Assembly: GCA_029932855.1 (NCBI GenBank)
Contig: JAOZPG010000026.1
Location: 1-34,003 of the forward strand
DNA from: Bacteroidales bacterium
GTDB lineage: Bacteria > Bacteroidota > Bacteroidia > Bacteroidales > VadinHA17
DNA length: 34,003 nt
Direction of reading: 5' to 3'
In this document: positions 22,113 to 29,700 of the stretch, one piece after another
Layout: every line of letters begins with the position of its first letter
How positions within the stretch are numbered: position 1 is the stretch's first letter
Program-made: the position numbers and the translations under genes
The notes under the pieces: generated by a model
What the model was told of the DNA's origin: nothing
Seen by the model: only the letters and a program-made list of their open reading frames with translations
Database searches by the model: none

Positions 22113-22526
22113 CTAATCAGTAAGCTTGTCTTCACATAACTCAACAAGGGCTCCGGGTGTTGATGCCGGATGCAGAAAAGCAATATCAAGCCCGTCTGCC
22201 CCTTTTCTCGACTTCTTATCTATTAAACTAACACCCCTGTCCTCCAGATCCTTAAGCCTGTCATCAATAGATTCCACTGCAAAGGCAATATGATGGAGCC
22301 CTTCACCTTTCTTGTTTATAAACCTGGCCACAGGACTTGCCGGGTCTGTTGCCTCAAGAAGTTCTATCTTACTGTCCCCAATCTTAAAGAATGCAGTCCT
22401 CACCATCTGATCCTTTACTTCTTCTATCTTATAGCATTTATATCCAAGTATTTCTTCATACTTCTTAACAGAACTGTTAAGATCTTTAACAGCTATTCCT
22501 ATATGTTCTATTTTCGATGGCTTCAT
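22113..22526 (-). CDS. mce: Methylmalonyl-CoA epimerase (VOC family)
   Basis: This 137-residue enzyme has two beta-alpha-beta-beta-beta units. Metal and active-site landmarks are the first-strand His (KIEHIGIAVKDL), LHHIAFAV and ALVELCE near the C-terminus. FLHPASTPGALVEL is the usual epimerase ending. It interconverts (R)- and (S)-methylmalonyl-CoA in the succinate-propionate route, widely used by Bacteroidota for propionate formation. It leads the citDE-citF-rubredoxin group. Other VOC lyases are less likely because of the length and end motif. Confidence 0.9.
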   Translation of the reverse strand: MKPSKIEHIGIAVKDLNSSVKKYEEILGYKCYKIEEVKDQMVRTAFFKIGDSKIELLEATDPASPVARFINKKGEGLHHIAFAVESIDDRLKDLEDRGVSLIDKKSRKGADGLDIAFLHPASTPGALVELCEDKLTD

Positions 22527-22616
22527 AGGCTTTGGTAAATCCCTGCCGGCATAAAGCAGGAGTTGATTAATAAATTAATGTTCGTCTCATCATATCTGTT
22601 TACATCTGTTAAATAA

Positions 22617-22624
22617 CAAAGATA
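22617..22624 (-). promoter_or_regulatory. Candidate -7 box (TATCTTTG) for the mce-citDE-citF unit
   Basis: The minus strand reads TATCTTTG, fitting TAnnTTTG and identical to the box before pepD. It would give a leader of about 85 nt before mce. No clear -33 TTTG is seen. Such octamers also occur by chance in AT-rich DNA. Confidence 0.35.
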
Positions 22625-22680
22625 TTCAATCCGGTCTTGTTTAAAGAATTATTATTCTCAAAAAATCAAGTTTTTAAAAA

Positions 22681-22709
22681 TATGGACAAATAGCATATCA
22701 TAGTCCATA
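22681..22709. promoter_or_regulatory. Inverted repeat TATGGAC-N15-GTCCATA
   Basis: Perfect 7-bp arms at 22681-22687 and 22703-22709 flank a 15-nt spacer. The site lies about 57 bp upstream (minus strand) of the candidate mce -7 box, a typical activator distance. No regulator is encoded beside it. Confidence 0.35.
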
Positions 22710-22744
22710 AGCTCAGCGGGCTTACAACTTTCATATTTCAGAAA

Positions 22745-22784
22745 AAGATGATCTATCTCATCTTACTGAAGTAAGCTATCTCAT
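22745..22784. promoter_or_regulatory. Overlapping dyads and a 9-bp direct repeat
   Basis: AAGATGA (22745-22751) pairs with TCATCTT (22758-22764) across 6 nt. CTTACT (22762-22767) pairs with AGTAAG (22770-22775) across 2 nt. The two hairpins share three bases and are mutually exclusive at the joint. The 9-mer CTATCTCAT occurs at 22753 and again at 22776, 23 bp apart, about two DNA helical turns, which would suit paired protein binding. Confidence 0.35.
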
Positions 22785-22837
22785 TAATAACTACTAACTA
22801 TTTATATTAAAAATACAATACTTTTATTTTTAGGTTT

Positions 22838-22866
22838 GCCAGGGTCAATTTATAATTGCCCCCGGC
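22838..22866 (+). promoter_or_regulatory. Long imperfect hairpin
   Basis: GCC-GGG-CAATT pairs with AATTG-CCC-GGC around a TAT loop, with a bulged T and a small internal loop, giving 11 base pairs. It is not followed by a T run, so it is probably not a terminator. It stands just 5' of the possible three-way junction. Confidence 0.35.
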
Positions 22867-22934
22867 AGGCGCTTGAACATATTAGCCTGGTGACCGGCAG
22901 GGAAATTTATATTCTGTACCAGGAACCATGCTGA

Positions 22935-23025
22935 GGTAAGATTCTTTTGTTCCGGCAATATTGCCTGCTCTAAAAAAGCAATCATATTACCGGACCTGGG
23001 GCCGAAACAGGCTGCAGATCTTACC
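22935..23025 (+). other. Candidate structured RNA with a three-way junction
   Basis: An 8-bp outer stem joins GGTAAGAT (22935-22942) to ATCTTACC (23018-23025). Inside it, a hairpin at 22951-22994 pairs TCCGG-C-AATA with TATT-A-CCGGA (one A-C mismatch) and continues with TTGC/GCAA. A short stem CCTG/CAGG (22995-22998 with 23008-23011) abuts it directly. The whole resembles a small riboswitch-like or ncRNA fold. It lies about 210 nt upstream of the methyltransferase start. It matches no riboswitch consensus I know (TPP, cobalamin, SAM and c-di-GMP were considered). No conservation evidence is available. Confidence 0.35.
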
Positions 23026-23035
23026 AGGGAAAGTG

Positions 23036-23056
23036 CACACCTTAAATTCAGGTGTG
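23036..23056 (+). promoter_or_regulatory. Perfect 7-bp hairpin CACACCT-N7-AGGTGTG
   Basis: The arms are perfect and the loop is TAAATTC. It follows the possible three-way junction by 10 nt. No T run follows, although AAGGGAAAATATG comes next. Confidence 0.4.
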
Positions 23057-23078
23057 AAGGGAAAATATGAAATATAGC

Positions 23079-23094
23079 GGTGATTTATATCACC
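23079..23094. promoter_or_regulatory. 16-bp palindrome GGTGAT-TTAT-ATCACC, CRP/FNR-like operator
   Basis: The perfect dyad has the GTGAT-N4-ATCAC geometry of CRP/FNR-family sites (FNR binds TTGAT-N4-ATCAA). A weaker GTCAC-N5-GTGAT element follows at about 23112-23125. The palindrome is ~140 bp upstream of the methyltransferase ATG. No CRP/FNR gene is in the window, so the link is inference. Confidence 0.4.
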
Positions 23095-23232
23095 TATTAC
23101 AGATAATTGATGTCACTGAATGTGATGAAACATTAGTATAATTAATATATAGTTTTAAGTTGGGCAATTTATATGCCTGAAAAAATAAGTAATTTATTAA
23201 ATAAATAACATAAAACCTTAATCTACTCAACT

Positions 23233-24249
23233 ATGGAAACAACACATGCAGACGTACAAGACGTACAAGAAGTACAAGAAGTAATTGCAGCAAAAGTAGC
23301 TGTAAAGGTCCCCGGAACTCTTACTGAGAGACAAATCAATTTTTTATATAACATGCTCGACCAGGGAGGTCCTGACGAAAAAGATTACAAGAGGTTTAGC
23401 CTGCTGGTTGACAGCCTGGACGAAGAAGGTATTGAAGAAATGAGAGAAGTCCTTTCACCCCTGCTTGGTAACACCGAAACGATACAGGGTTATGCTTACT
23501 CAAAACCATACGGTTATGCTGGTGACTTCAGGATGATAGACCTGATATACCAGAATTATGCCAGCCAGGATCCAAAATTTCGTAAGTGGGATCTGTGGTG
23601 GCAAAAATCTCATGCCAGCCAGGCAGTGAGAAACCGCAAGGATTTCTTTAAGAATCTTATGTCAGAGATTGATAAAAAGTCGGGTGAAGCAAAAAAAATA
23701 CTGATTCTTGGCTCCGGACCGGCAACAGATGTTTATGAATATCTTAAGCAAAATCCTGATTCAAAACTAAGTTTTGACCTTGTTGACCTTGATGAAAACG
23801 CAATAGCATATGCGAAAAACAAGAACAAGGAATTCAGTGACAGGCTTAACTTCTTCAAGATAAACGTATTAAGGTTCAAAACGCATCATCACTACGACCT
23901 TATCTGGAGTGCAGGATTATTTGATTATTTCAAAGAAAAACACTTTATTTACTTATTGAAAAAGTACATGCTTTACTTAAAAGAAGACGGGGAAATAGTT
24001 ATAGGCAACTTTTCGGGATATAATCCTACCAGGATGCTTATGGAAGCTTTCTCCGATTGGTATCTGAACTACAGGTCGGAAGCCGAGTTATATAATATAG
24101 CTCATGAGGCAGGCCTCGGTGCAGATCAGGTTTTTGTGGACAAAGAATCTTTAGGTGTAAACCTGTTCATGAGAATTAAACTGGATAAGAAAGAGTTTAT
24201 AGAATACAAAGAACCAATATCAAAAGTTTCGGAGTATTCCATAAACTAG
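23233..24249 (+). CDS. PhcB-like class I SAM-dependent methyltransferase
   Basis: The 338-residue soluble protein has an N-terminal helical region (about 28-140) containing the signature AYSKPYGYAGDFRMIDLIYQ (88-107). I associate this with the group annotated as 3-hydroxypalmitic acid methyl ester biosynthesis proteins. The Rossmann methyltransferase follows: motif I ILILGSGPATDV (157-168), the acidic loop FDLVDLDENAIAYA (D186) and the motif IV/post region DLIWSAGLFDYF (222-233). In Ralstonia, PhcB methylates a 3-hydroxy fatty acid to make a diffusible signal sensed by PhcS/PhcR. Here the next gene, 25 nt downstream, is a membrane hybrid kinase, then a receiver protein, so a signal-synthesis role is attractive. 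The actual substrate is unproven. Residues 9-20 come from a 9-nt tandem repeat. Confidence 0.7.
   Translation: METTHADVQDVQEVQEVIAAKVAVKVPGTLTERQINFLYNMLDQGGPDEKDYKRFSLLVDSLDEEGIEEMREVLSPLLGNTETIQGYAYSKPYGYAGDFRMIDLIYQNYASQDPKFRKWDLWWQKSHASQAVRNRKDFFKNLMSEIDKKSGEAKKILILGSGPATDVYEYLKQNPDSKLSFDLVDLDENAIAYAKNKNKEFSDRLNFFKINVLRFKTHHHYDLIWSAGLFDYFKEKHFIYLLKKYMLYLKEDGEIVIGNFSGYNPTRMLMEAFSDWYLNYRSEAELYNIAHEAGLGADQVFVDKESLGVNLFMRIKLDKKEFIEYKEPISKVSEYSIN
23251..23286 (+). repeat. 9-nt tandem repeat in the methyltransferase 5' end
   Basis: Units GACGTACAA, GACGTACAA and GAAGTACAA plus a partial fourth (GAAGTA) encode the run DVQDVQEVQEV. The unit is in frame, so copy-number change would alter length, not phase. 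Confidence 0.8.
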
Positions 24250-24274
24250 ACATATCCACTGCTAACGTGGGTTT

Positions 24275-26239
24275 ATGGAAAGAAAAAAACTGAGTTTTAA
24301 TAATCTTTTTTCAAAGGGTTTAACTTCACACGAAGGGATGAAGTTAAACCCTTTCACTCTTTCTTTTACCGGAGAGCAGAAGATATACGAGCATCAATTC
24401 CTAAATGATTATCACAAAAAATCTCTTGTTCAGTTCAGGTTCTCAATGATACTGGCACTGCTCCTCTACGATGTATTTGCACTTCTTGATGCCACTATTG
24501 CACCTGATCTTTATAAAGTTTTATGGATTATCAGGTTTGCTTTGGCCACACCTGCACTTATAATTGCCTACTTACTTTCATATACTAAAGCATTTGTTAA
24601 GTATATGCAATTGTATGTTGCCATTACCTGGCTAATAACCGGTGTGGGCATTATTATTATGAATCATCTTATTACAGCCCAGGGGATATACTCTTATTAT
24701 GCAGGACTTATACTCATATTTATTTTTGGATATACTTTTATTAGGGCAAGATTTATTTATACCATAGTAGTAGGATGGCTGCTGGTAATACTATATATGA
24801 TCTCAGCGATATGGATGTCAGAGATACCGATAAGCTACCTGTACAGCAATAATTTCTTTCTTATAGCAACCAGCCTGATTGGCTTATTCATAAATTACAC
24901 ACTTGAGACAAACCACAGGAGGGATTTCTTCTTCAGGAGATTGCTTATTGAAGAACAGGAAAAAGTAAAAGCAGCCAATCATGCCCTGGAAAAGCGCGTA
25001 AGGGAAAGAACTGCCCAGCTTACAAATGCAAATATTGAGCTGAACAAGGAAATTGAACAAAGGAAACAATACGAGGAAGAAAGGAATAAAATAGAGATGC
25101 AGCTATTGCAGTTGCAAAAAATGGAAACAATAGGCACACTTGCCGGGGGTATTGCTCACGACTTCAACAATATTCTTACGCCCATACTGGGTTATACAGA
25201 GATGGCAATGGAAGAACTTGAGGAAGAAAGCAACCTCATGTATGATATTGAGCAGATATACAATGCGGCAATGAGGGCAAAAGATCTTGTTCAGCAGATA
25301 CTTACTTTTAGCCGCCAGATGGAGGTTGATAAAAGGCCTTTACCCATGGACCAGCTGATTAACGAGGTGATGAACCTGGTTAAGGCATCTTTCCCTTCCA
25401 ACATTCAGATAATTAAAAACCTTAGCCCGGATTGCGGAACCATAATGGCAGATTCAACGCAGATACACCAGGTGATCATGAATTTGTCTACAAATGCATA
25501 TCATGCAATGAAGGAAAAGGGCGGCACTCTTAAAATAAGCCTTAAGACGGTTCGTGCAAACAAGGCAATGCAAAGAAAAATTCCCAAACTGGAATTAAAA
25601 ACATACCTGTGCACAACCGTAAGTGATACAGGACATGGAATGGATAAAGTGACATTGAGCAGGATATTTGAACCTTTCTTCACAAAAAAGGAAGTGGGTG
25701 TAGGTTCGGGACTGGGACTATCTGTGGTTCACGGTATAGTAAGCTCTTATGATGGAGCCATAACTGTTGAAAGCGAACCCGGAAAAGGAACTGTTTTTAA
25801 TATCTACCTTCCCCAGTACAGTGCAGCTGATAATATTAAGCTCAATAAAGACAGGATAGTCCAGAAAGGTAAAGAACATATTCTCTTTGTTGATGATGAA
25901 GAAGAGATAACATTTATGGGTAAGAGAATGCTGGAGAGTCTTGGTTATACGGTAAATGTTCATACCAACAGCCTTGCAGCCCTTGATGACTTCACATCCG
26001 ACCCAACACTTTACGACCTGCTTGTAACCGATCAGACTATGCCCTATATGCTTGGCACCGAATTGATCAGGAAAGCCAGGGAATTGAAACCGGCCATCAA
26101 AGCCATAATAATTACAGGTTTCGGCGATTCGATAACTGAGGAAGAAAAAATAAAGAAAGGCATTGATGCGATAGTAGTTAAACCATTAATACTTAGTAGC
26201 TTCAGCAACTTAATAAGAAAAGTACTTGACAATAATTAA
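24275..26239 (+). CDS. Six-TM hybrid sensor histidine kinase with C-terminal receiver
   Basis: This 654-residue protein (from the first ATG) has six predicted TM helices between about 52 and 210, with short loops and no large periplasmic domain, implying sensing of a membrane-soluble or intramembrane cue. A coiled coil (225-282) leads to HisKA with H295 (GGIAHDFNNILTP). HATPase boxes are N407 (MNLSTNAYHAM), D451 (DTGHGM) and GSGLGLSVVHG. A receiver follows from about 535, with D540/D541, phospho-acceptor D586 (LLVTDQTMP) and K636. The second ATG (24338) would drop 21 low-complexity residues and place the 16-bp inverted repeat in the leader. It sits 25 nt after the PhcB-like gene and 23 nt before a lone receiver gene. 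The six-TM-kinase layout is like Ralstonia PhcS, the sensor for the PhcB product. Confidence 0.9.
   Translation: MERKKLSFNNLFSKGLTSHEGMKLNPFTLSFTGEQKIYEHQFLNDYHKKSLVQFRFSMILALLLYDVFALLDATIAPDLYKVLWIIRFALATPALIIAYLLSYTKAFVKYMQLYVAITWLITGVGIIIMNHLITAQGIYSYYAGLILIFIFGYTFIRARFIYTIVVGWLLVILYMISAIWMSEIPISYLYSNNFFLIATSLIGLFINYTLETNHRRDFFFRRLLIEEQEKVKAANHALEKRVRERTAQLTNANIELNKEIEQRKQYEEERNKIEMQLLQLQKMETIGTLAGGIAHDFNNILTPILGYTEMAMEELEEESNLMYDIEQIYNAAMRAKDLVQQILTFSRQMEVDKRPLPMDQLINEVMNLVKASFPSNIQIIKNLSPDCGTIMADSTQIHQVIMNLSTNAYHAMKEKGGTLKISLKTVRANKAMQRKIPKLELKTYLCTTVSDTGHGMDKVTLSRIFEPFFTKKEVGVGSGLGLSVVHGIVSSYDGAITVESEPGKGTVFNIYLPQYSAADNIKLNKDRIVQKGKEHILFVDDEEEITFMGKRMLESLGYTVNVHTNSLAALDDFTSDPTLYDLLVTDQTMPYMLGTELIRKARELKPAIKAIIITGFGDSITEEEKIKKGIDAIVVKPLILSSFSNLIRKVLDNN
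24313..24354 (+). repeat. Perfect 16-bp inverted repeat at the start of the hybrid kinase gene
   Basis: Arms AAAGGGTTTAACTTCA (24313-24328) and TGAAGTTAAACCCTTT (24339-24354) flank a 10-nt loop. The RNA hairpin would be very stable and is followed by a pyrimidine-rich CACTCTTTCTTTT, resembling an attenuator or weak terminator on the + strand. The alternative start codon at 24338 lies at the loop/3'-arm junction, with GAAGGG just before it in the loop. Kinase expression could therefore be set apart from that of the methyltransferase. Confidence 0.75.
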
Positions 26240-26262
26240 ATAAATATAACATAAAGAATAAA

Positions 26263-26631
26263 ATGGCAAGAATACTTATTATTGATGATGAGCCTAACAT
26301 TTTATTAATGTTAAAAAAAATGCTGGAAAGATCCGGTTATACGGTAGATATGGCAATTAATGGAATGGAGGGTCTTGAGCTTTTCAGAAAATTCCCTGCC
26401 GATCTGATAATTACTGATATTGTAATGCCCGAAAAAGAAGGTCTTGAAACTATAAGAGAGATCAGGAATGAATATCCCGATGTAAAAATAATTGCCATAT
26501 CAGGCGGAGGACGTATTGATTCAACTGAATACCTTGCTTCAGCACGACTGTTTGGAGCCTCCAGGATCTTCCAGAAGCCCTTCAAACAAAAAGAAATACT
26601 TAGTGCTGTAAAAGAATTGCTGGAAACCTGA
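26263..26631 (+). CDS. Stand-alone CheY-like receiver protein
   Basis: The 122-residue protein is a single receiver domain: acidic pair D8/D9 (ILIIDDEP), phospho-acceptor D52 (LIITDIVMPE), the switch residue in IIAISGGG (S80) and K105 (IFQKPF). No output domain is attached. It starts 23 nt after the hybrid kinase stop, so it is likely the phosphotransfer partner or a phosphate sink in the same pathway. The final effector must be another protein. PhcQ/PhcR in Ralstonia also carry N-terminal receivers, a loose parallel. Confidence 0.92.
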   Translation: MARILIIDDEPNILLMLKKMLERSGYTVDMAINGMEGLELFRKFPADLIITDIVMPEKEGLETIREIRNEYPDVKIIAISGGGRIDSTEYLASARLFGASRIFQKPFKQKEILSAVKELLET

Positions 26632-26696
26632 GTATGTTATGCGGCATTTATGAATATTTTCTAAAAGAAAAACCGAAAGGATATTCTGCTTTTTAC

Positions 26697-26704
26697 TAAA
26701 TTTG
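26697..26704 (+). promoter_or_regulatory. Candidate -7 box (TAAATTTG) for the tricorn gene
   Basis: The site fits TAnnTTTG and would give a leader of about 88 nt. No -33 element is evident, so support is weak. Confidence 0.3.
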
Positions 26705-26799
26705 AAGTTCCTGCCCCTGGTTCATAGCTTTCAGGATAATACAGATGATCCAATAATCTGTTTAATGATAACTATTTATAACTAATAATTAATAAACTC

Positions 26800-29700
26800 A
26801 TGAAGAAAAGTATCTGTTTGTTTTTGTTCATTGTCATCTTATTGTCCGGTTCCGGAATTAAGGCACAAGAGGCCCGCTTATTAAGATTTCCAAGCATACA
26901 TGAGAACCAACTGGTATTCAGCTATGCAGGCGACCTCTATTCTGTAAGTGACAATGGTGGAATGGCCCGCAAACTTACCTCTCACAATGGATATGAAGTA
27001 TTTCCAAAATTCTCACCCAATGGAAAGACCATTGCTTTTACAGGACAATATGATGGAAATACAGAAGTATTTACAATACCGGCAGAGGGTGGTGAGCCCG
27101 TAAGGATCACTTATACTGCAACCCTGGGAAGAGATGATATAGGTGACAGGATGGGTCCGAATAACATTGTTATGACATGGACTCCCGACAGTAAATACAT
27201 AGTCTACAGGTCACGTAAGCAAAGCTTCAATTCTTTTACCGGCCAGCTCTTTAAAGTTCCGGTTGATGGAGGTATGTCTGAGGAGATTCCTCTTTCTAAA
27301 AGTGGTTTTTGCTCATACTCTTCCGACGGCAACCAACTGGCTTTCAACTGGGTCTTCAGGGAGTTTCGTACATGGAAATACTATAAAGGCGGAATGGCTG
27401 ATGACCTTAGGATATATGACTTCAATACTAAAGAAGTAAAGCAAATAACTGATAATCCCAGTCAGGATATAGAACCTATGTGGATTGGAGATGAAATTTA
27501 TTTTCTTTCTGACCGCGACAGGATAATGAACATGTTTGTTTATAATACTGTCTCAGGGGAAACAAAAAAAGTAACGGATTTTACAGATTATGATATTAAA
27601 TTCCCCTCATTCGACAAAAAGAATATTGTTTTTGAAAAAGGAGGATACATATATAAATATACTATTGCCGATAAAAAGCTTTCAAAGATAGACATTCAAA
27701 TAGCCAATGATAATCCCTATTCACGATCAGAGACTAAGGATGCCAGCAAAAAAATTACAGGGGCTGAGTTATCCCCTAACGGGGAAAGGGTGCTTTTCAG
27801 TGCCAGGGGAGACATTTTTTCCGTACCTGCCAAATCAGGGATTACAACAAATTACACATCCAGTTCGGGTGTTCACGAAAGAAATGCTTCATGGTCGCCC
27901 AACGGAAAGTATATTGCATATATCTCAGACAGATCCGGCGAATTTGAAATATGGATAGAAGACCAGGCAGGTAATGGCAAAGCAAAACAAATCACCAAAG
28001 ATTCAGACACATATATATTTGGTTTTGAGTGGTCACCCGACAGTAAGAAAATACTATATAACACAAAAAAGCAGGAGCTAATCTATATTGATATTGAAAG
28101 TAGTGAAATGCAAGAGGTGGACAAGACAACAGAAGGGCCCTGGTTTGCATATAACTGGTCTCCCGAAAGCAAATGGATTACTTACACAAAGGCAGAAAAA
28201 GGAATGACCAGGATAAGGCTTTATAGTCTTGCCGATAAAAAGTCATATGAAATTACTGAAGGCTGGTATGACTCAAACAATCCTTCATTCAGCAGTGATG
28301 GCAAGTACCTGGTATTTACATCAGCACGTGATTTTAATCCCATCTACAGCTACACAGAATGGAACCATGCCTACCAGGATATGAGCCGTATCTACCTTGT
28401 TACCCTGGCAAAAAGCACAGCATCTCCTTTTGCTCCTGAAAATGATGTGGTGAAAATTGAGGCAAAAGAAAAACCGGAAGCCGAAAAAGCCAAGAAAACC
28501 AAATCAAAAAACAAAAAGGAAACGAAAGATGAAGATGCTTCCGCTGCAATGAAAGTTGATATTGCCGGAATAAGCAAGCGGATAATCTCTCTCCCGGTAA
28601 AAGCAGGAAATTATTATAATGTTCGTGCTATCGATGATAAGATCTACTATATAACAATGTCATCAGGTGATCATGGTACAAGTACGAAAATGTATGACCT
28701 TAAAGAAAAGAAAGAAACAGAACTGGGAAGCAACCTTAATTTTACTATCTCTCCCAATAATAAAAAGATGCTTGTTGCACAGGGCGGGAAATATGCAGTC
28801 ATAAACCTTCCACAATCAAAAGTAAGCCTTAAGAAAACAGTTGATCTTTCAAATATGAAAGTTAAGATCAATCTTAAAAAAGAATGGCAGCAGATATTTG
28901 ATGAGAGCTGGAGACAGATGCGTGATTTCTTCTATGCACCAAACATGCACGGACTTGACTGGAAAGCAATTTACGACAAATACAATGTTCTTATACCCTA
29001 TGTTAACCACAGATCAGACCTCACCTATATTATAGGTGAAATGATAGCCGAGCTGAATATAGGCCATGCTTATGCAATCAATGGCGAAAGACCTATGCCT
29101 GAAAGAATCAATATAGGCTTACTGGGGGCAAGGCTTAGCAAGGATAACAGCGGCTACTTTAAGATTGATGATATTTTAGACGGAGCTAACTGGAGTAAAA
29201 CACTTCGTTCTCCTCTTAATGAAATTGGAGTAAACATTAATGAAGGTGATTATATACTGGCTGTAAACGGTAAAAGCACAAAGGAGATGAAAGATATTTA
29301 CCGGGCTTTTGTTGGTATGGCCGGTAAGCAGGTAGAACTTACGGTTAATGACAGTCCTTCCCTTACAGCTGCCAGGAAAAGCATTGTTAAACCGGTTGGA
29401 GATGAATCAGCCCTTTATTACTACAACTGGGTTCAGGGAAACATAAAGAAAGTATCAGATGCAACAAAGGGAGAAGTTGGTTACCTGCATGTACCTGATA
29501 TGGGTGTTGCGGGACTCAATGAATTTGTTAAATACTACTATCCCCAGCTTCAAAAGAAAGCACTGATCATTGATGTCAGGGGTAATGGCGGAGGAAATGT
29601 ATCCCCCATGCTTATTGAAAGATTGCTTAGATCAGTTACCTATGTAACAATGCACACAGGAATGAAAAACGGAGATATTAACCCGGGGGGGCAACTGGAC

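Follow-up and report, generated by a model that had tools for sequence, protein, structure and literature searches.

A covarying hairpin within the start of a sensor kinase gene in uncultured Bacteroidales is very probably a conserved cis-acting RNA element

A perfect inverted repeat lies just inside the coding sequence of a hybrid histidine kinase gene in a stretch of DNA of 34,003 nucleotides (the window) from a Bacteroidales bacterium (GenBank assembly GCA_029932855.1, contig JAOZPG010000026.1), and raises the question of whether it is a coincidence, a feature of the DNA or an RNA structure that controls the gene. The kinase gene (24275-26239, on the + strand, as are all of the features described below) was identified as an open reading frame (ORF) in which Pfam and an AlphaFold model of residues 1-262 indicated a membrane sensor, HisKA, HATPase_c and receiver domains. 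Its ATG at 24275 was 25 nt past the stop of the ORF of a class I SAM-dependent methyltransferase (23233-24249), which matched Pfam Methyltransf_31, Methyltransf_25 and Methyltransf_12 at or above the cut-off. The next ORF in the cluster (26263-26631) encodes a single-domain response regulator, as judged by Pfam. The methyltransferase also gave a weak match to NCBIfam FlxJ (23.3 bits vs a cut-off of 560) and, when compared with plasmids by tblastn, had an identity below 30% in the 12 listed of 57 records. Pfam named no sensor domain in the membrane sensor region of the kinase (24275-25060), and the modelled bundle formed by this region resembled the structure of Pseudomonas ImcA (8wcn; Foldseek E 4.6e-4, TMq 0.65) and bore a weak likeness to the membrane portion of mammalian adenylyl cyclases in the structure comparison.

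The two arms of the repeat, AAAGGGTTTAACTTCA (24313-24328) and TGAAGTTAAACCCTTT (24339-24354), were complementary at 16 of 16 positions and were separated by a loop of 10 nt (24329-24338). The 3' arm lies over the kinase codons M-K-L-N-P-F, and the second in-frame ATG of the gene was confirmed to be located at the border of the loop and the 3' arm (24338-24340). The original prediction that a dyad of this size within a coding sequence is beyond chance was borne out by several calculations. The predicted RNA fold of 24250-24400 had an energy of -43.7 kcal/mol (z -4.7), a stability that was equaled by none of 200 shuffles, and none of 300 resamplings of the codons of a 57-nt segment around the site, with the protein held fixed, was as stable as the natural sequence. 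A search for perfect arms of at least 14 nt with loops of 3-15 nt in the window and 20 stretches of 20 kb (434,003 bases, of which 369,555 were in ORFs of at least 150 amino acids, from an assembly of 2,618,192 bases) found five perfect dyads at any position, and the kinase dyad was the only one inside an ORF of at least 150 amino acids. Within the assembly, the arm occurred without mismatch only at the two positions of the hairpin, so that the dyad is present as a single copy and a dispersed, REP-like repeat was rejected. The exact dyad pattern had no match in viral contigs, and the covariance models of Rfam 15 gave no match up to E = 1 on either strand of 23000-25500.

Sequences homologous to the kinase N-terminus came from the genomes of 147 relatives, 117 members of the family and 393 members of the order (overlapping sets in which 38, 37 and 48, respectively, had matches), from a named genome collection (80 of 187 loci kept) and from 20 further stretches. 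The 186 loci, all of which had a match, gave 123 distinct rows after copies were removed. The named relatives were metagenome-assembled Bacteroidales and Bacteroidota and, more distantly, Desulfobacterota-type bacteria, a distribution that makes an uncultured bacterium of the Bacteroidota the most likely source of the window. A fixed 57-nt segment spanning the codon that corresponds to the second ATG in the alignment was compared in each row with 300 codon resamplings that encode the same protein. A z of -2.8 or lower was found in 16 of the 123 rows. Fourteen of these, each from a different genome (L009, which is this locus, L010, L011, L012, L013, L018, L032-L038 and L176) and referred to here as the hairpin rows, had z values of -2.8 to -6.3, with 0-1 of 300 resamplings equally stable. 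The other two were L179, which is discussed below, and L187, which had a weak stem in a different register.

The stem also recurred at the same codons. With positions counted from the internal ATG, a helix score of 22 in the register i+j=-9 was reached by 14 of the 123 rows, 13 of the hairpin rows and L179, while in any of 45 other registers this score was reached by at most one row, in a test that ignores folding energy. The remaining hairpin row, L033, had this stem too, but its loop was longer by one codon, which gives a register of -12. In the 13 genes of equal register, the median helix score was 34.5 at -9 and 12.0 at the next best of 320 registers.

An alignment of the stem core in these 13 rows, 12 pairs in length, showed that 96.8% of the cells were paired and that 6 of the 12 pairs, amounting to 25 cells, had undergone two-sided changes, although the rows are related and the events are therefore not independent. 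None of 500 shuffles reached the observed number of paired cells, the number of two-sided cells or the covariation score, whereas two other measures, how many pairs had changed on both sides and how many further types of pair occurred, were not exceptional (reached by 72 and 81 of the 500 shuffles, respectively). When the 3' arm was slid by 1-3 columns the pairing fell to 29-58%, and a control register that was off by three columns had 42.9% of its cells paired and no two-sided changes. Ten pairs were formed in all 13 rows, namely those between 24318-24327 and 24340-24349, which run from (-11,2) to (-20,11) and constitute the upper stem adjoining the internal ATG. Only the stem was kept; the loop, which varied in sequence and length among species, and the base of the stem were not conserved. 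The stability of the hairpin ranged from -14.8 to -28.4 kcal/mol across the 14 rows.

The pattern of imperfect pairs distinguished between the strands. Under a strand-neutral score that treats both kinds of mismatch alike, the non-Watson-Crick pairs of the stem comprised 10 G-U and one A-C in 15 rows including L179 (9 vs 1 without it), and the sense fold was more stable than the antisense fold in 13 of the 14 hairpin rows. Because the mismatches were G-U rather than A-C and the sense strand folds more stably, the element acts as sense-strand mRNA. Comparison of the rows showed that the hairpin has been retained, with compensatory changes, throughout one branch of the methyltransferase-kinase gene pair. 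As judged from these sequence comparisons, it is very probably a conserved, cis-acting, sense-strand RNA element at the start of the kinase gene.

These observations bear directly on two explanations that invoke no RNA structure. The possibility that the hairpin is a chance occurrence, or a dispersed repeat that happened to land at the kinase start, was refuted by the register test and the covariation; the sequence is single copy, another 13 genomes had a stem over the corresponding codons, with an unchanged register in 12, and the probability left to this explanation is negligible. A feature of the DNA itself, either a palindrome that binds a protein or an inverted repeat kept perfect by template-switch mutation, would be in accord with the perfect or near-perfect arms of several rows. 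However, the sequences of the arms vary among species while the pairing is kept, which a protein that reads the sequence would not allow, and the 10 to 1 preponderance of G-U over A-C is at odds with a cause at the DNA level, which would be strand-neutral. An origin of this kind is accordingly regarded as very improbable.

The distribution of the element was determined from a tree of 107 of the 123 rows (those with an HMM score of at least 195 plus the hairpin rows), constructed by a quick method from the columns past the site only. The 14 hairpin rows formed one branch with modest support (SH-aLRT 85), and no row in the neighbouring branches had the stem by either the fold or the register test. 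The other 93 rows of the tree included a single one with a similar stem, L179 (G291:C143:186200-189000), a remote, long-branch kinase homolog with an 11-bp stem in the identical register (z -3.0). No other match above 38% identity was found in 61 genomes around L179, and its stem was not counted as conserved because there was no close relative among them. A methyltransferase homolog was present upstream of the kinase in 12 of the 14 hairpin rows, a count in which the contig of L013 begins just before the kinase and L176 was left out of the search. In L014, L015, L016 and L021 (three g10 genomes and the like), the methyltransferase match ended approximately 85-340 nt before the kinase start, a junction unlike the tight one of the hairpin rows, and merely weak, short stems were present at the site.

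A covariance model built from the alignment matched only the kinase site at E <= 0.05, in 13 of the 117 family genomes under stricter many-genome filters, and 7 of the 13 also had a weaker match on the reverse strand there; the model missed G006, the row with the extra loop codon. Among the 393 order genomes, it gave just two weak further matches (G180 and G297), which were rejected as instances of the same element since they are intergenic, T-tailed stems between converging genes. The one in G180 (L255, G180:C3:144829-144883) is a stem-loop followed by a run of T, has arms similar in sequence to those of the kinase hairpin and is probably a terminator. A literature search, which covered listings and the openings of abstracts and is thus no proof of absence from print, returned nothing recognised as this element. 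The small RNA family inside the coding sequence is new; its general kind is known already.

The hairpin is preceded by a start codon and a short N-terminal tail, which in this genome comprises 21 codons (24275-24337). All 14 hairpin rows had a start codon (12 ATG, 2 TTG) that preceded the site by 19-23 codons in an open frame, and in every one the stem began at +36 to +44 relative to this start. In L013 and L018 (genus g11), which had no upstream in-frame ATG, the kinase seems to begin at a TTG, and the site, 19 codons further on, is a GTG. The distance from the methyltransferase stop to the kinase start was 5 nt in seven g13/g5 rows, 25, 21, 21 and 23 nt in four g1/g3 rows and 48 nt in L018; the stop was not visible in L013 and L176. 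Measured from the same stop to the site, the distance was 65, 68 or 74 nt in the seven g13/g5 rows, differences that are multiples of 3, and 88, 84, 84 and 86 nt in the g1/g3 rows, where the length changed before the start codon and not after it. Since the g13/g5 lengths preserve the frame and the g1/g3 differences precede the start codon, the kinase tail is most likely translated.

With the upstream start present in an open frame in 14 of 14 rows, one of the alternatives offered originally, that the 21 N-terminal residues are untranslated, is not supported. Other parts of the original interpretation, a structure beyond chance with the appearance of a control element, were sustained. It had also been proposed that the idea would fall if relatives conserved the 21 residues without the dyad and transcript levels did not change across the site; half of what was seen agrees with this, in that homologs outside the hairpin clade have a tail and no dyad, whereas within the clade the dyad was kept and the tail sequence was not. 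In the 36 rows of the wider clade that lack the hairpin, an upstream in-frame start codon was present in all 36, and ATG, GTG and TTG were all absent from the second site in 23. The substitutions in the tail were distributed over the three codon positions as 43/41/49 in 12 pairs of hairpin rows, as opposed to 129/63/254 in the body that follows, when aligned as protein; in 12 pairs of rows without the hairpin the tail had 30/16/53, and in these counts pairs share rows. The tail sequence thus appears to be hardly constrained in the hairpin clade although its frame is kept. The AlphaFold pLDDT was 46 for residues 1-10, 50 for residues 11-20 and 83 for residues 21-30, so that, in the model, the confidently folded part of the kinase begins at the second Met.

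The sequence past the stem was also unusual. In the 14 hairpin rows, there were 95 T residues at +18 to +30 past the internal ATG, compared with 70.0 expected by codon resampling (z 7.2), and 194 compared with 172.6 expected (z 3.8) in the 36 hairpin-less rows, z-scores that ignore the relatedness of the rows. The excess of T is thus one at synonymous sites. The T-rich stretch past the last G-C pair (24352-24371 in this genome) was scored as a terminator tail against random coding 15-mers, the 95th percentile of which was 3.43. The score was 3.56-4.59 in 9 of the 14 rows and 2.45-2.52 in L010, L011, L013 and L018, which still keep the stem, and L033 had no valid score. For comparison, 34 hairpins past the ends of ORFs in this genome had a median tail score of 3.1 and a 75th percentile of 5.0. 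When the tail was scored past the whole stem, 3.43 was exceeded in just two of the 14 rows (L012, 4.52; L037, 3.61), and the value at this locus was 2.01.

The mechanism tentatively chosen is a ribosome-gated attenuator. As transcription proceeds beyond the methyltransferase gene and reaches the kinase start, the stem would form behind the polymerase if no ribosome were present at the first kinase start codon, and together with the U-rich stretch it would halt or release the polymerase, leaving a message for the methyltransferase only. A ribosome loaded at the first kinase start, often one that had just finished the methyltransferase a few nucleotides upstream, would cover the 36-44 nt to the stem and hold it open so that the kinase could be transcribed and made. 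The translation of the tail would matter but the tail peptide itself would not, and the same stem would bury the internal ATG and make an independent start there difficult. In this way the hairpin may set the output of the kinase relative to that of the methyltransferase from the same message, presumably with the outcome that more methyltransferase than kinase is made. An excerpt of a study of reporter constructs (PMC5021804) indicates that ribosomes can open a terminator hairpin within a reading frame.

The attenuator was preferred because it accounts for three features: a stem at a constant distance from the start codon, a tail that is translated yet free to vary, and the surplus of T. The T-rich tail, which is often weak, is suggestive evidence for it. 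The retention of the upper stem counts against it, as a terminator depends on the base of the stem. A simple terminator scan of the + strand from 22500 to 27000 found no site, with a loop limit of 8 that excludes this hairpin and its 10-nt loop. A competing partner for the arms that recurs through the clade was not found; in L032, L033, L034, L038 and L176 (g13/g5) the best other partner of the 5' arm was a T-rich stretch near +69 to +79, with 8-11 pairs including G-U.

The same data can be read in two other ways. The stem may be a translational mask, burying the internal ATG or GTG. Initiation of the kinase would then be confined to the upstream codon and coupled to the methyltransferase, or a shorter kinase, beginning with the folded domain, would be produced only on melting of the stem. 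The site was a start codon in 14 of 14 hairpin rows (12 ATG, 2 GTG) as compared with 13 of the 36 wider-clade rows that lack the hairpin, in which TGG was the most common codon (TGG 15, ATG 9, TTG 4, TTT 4, CTG 3, TAC 1), the core pairs lie directly beside the internal start codon in all rows, and the modelled fold begins there, at residue 21. Moreover, 7 of the 73 remaining rows lacked an upstream start in an open frame and in six of these (L136, L153, L158, L169, L173 and L183) the site was ATG, while the uneven T tail and the fact that the upper part of the stem is invariant, and not the lower, favour masking over attenuation. Yet an ATG occupied the site in 53 of those 73 rows, with a stem in L179 only, nine rows of the wider clade keep the ATG without a hairpin, and the presence of the start codon amounts to a single contrast on the tree. 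Masking is considered only slightly less likely than attenuation.

The other reading is that the stem affects the stability or processing of the message, by blocking 3'-5' decay or by being cut, so that the methyltransferase part outlives the kinase part. A stem that is conserved while its loop and base are not is what would be expected of a generic barrier, and such a role fits all 14 rows, including those without a T-rich tail. On the other hand, translation probably runs through the stem, so that passing ribosomes would open it again and again, and a barrier to an exonuclease needs no fixed distance from the start codon, yet the distance was 36-44 nt throughout; the T excess past the stem would also be left unexplained. 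This role is rated as somewhat less likely than the other two.

Returning to ribosome-gated attenuation, a more specific proposal, at best tentative, is that the control element lies entirely within translated sequence and that the almost unconstrained tail of the sensor kinase exists to carry the gated hairpin. In an operon of uncultured Bacteroidales that resembles those for quorum sensing, the hairpin would fix how much of the signal-making enzyme is present relative to the signal sensor.

Structured RNAs are usually sought in intergenic sequence. The kinase hairpin sits in a reading frame and is visible only through covariation under a fixed protein, and it offers a clean, testable case in which an RNA structure and a protein coding sequence share the same bases. 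It also gives a concrete handle on how the methyltransferase-kinase pair may reach unequal levels from one message.

In Ralstonia, the quorum-sensing genes of PhcB, PhcS and PhcR, a methyltransferase, a histidine kinase and a response regulator, are side by side, and the locus described here shares this gene order, a likeness in arrangement. The hairpin itself resembles attenuators inside a short reading frame such as the pyrBI leader (pyrL) of Escherichia coli, where, according to the excerpt on pyrL reporters (PMC5021804), a stem-loop past a start codon can be kept open by a close ribosome, as is proposed here. In contrast to pyrL, the frame is that of the kinase gene itself, the U tail is less pronounced and is lacking in at least 4 of the 14 rows, and no run of codons that might sense a metabolite was noticed. 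Hairpins that mask start codons and translational coupling between the genes of operons are familiar, and the kinase element has in common with them a stem over a start codon and an upstream stop 5-48 nt before another start. It differs in that the second in-frame start is covered while the first lies outside the stem. Intercistronic stems stabilise parts of the messages of operons such as puf and malEF, and there too neighbouring genes could be expressed unequally owing to a strong stem close to their junction, but the kinase stem is part of the coding sequence of the downstream gene and shows its covariation within it.
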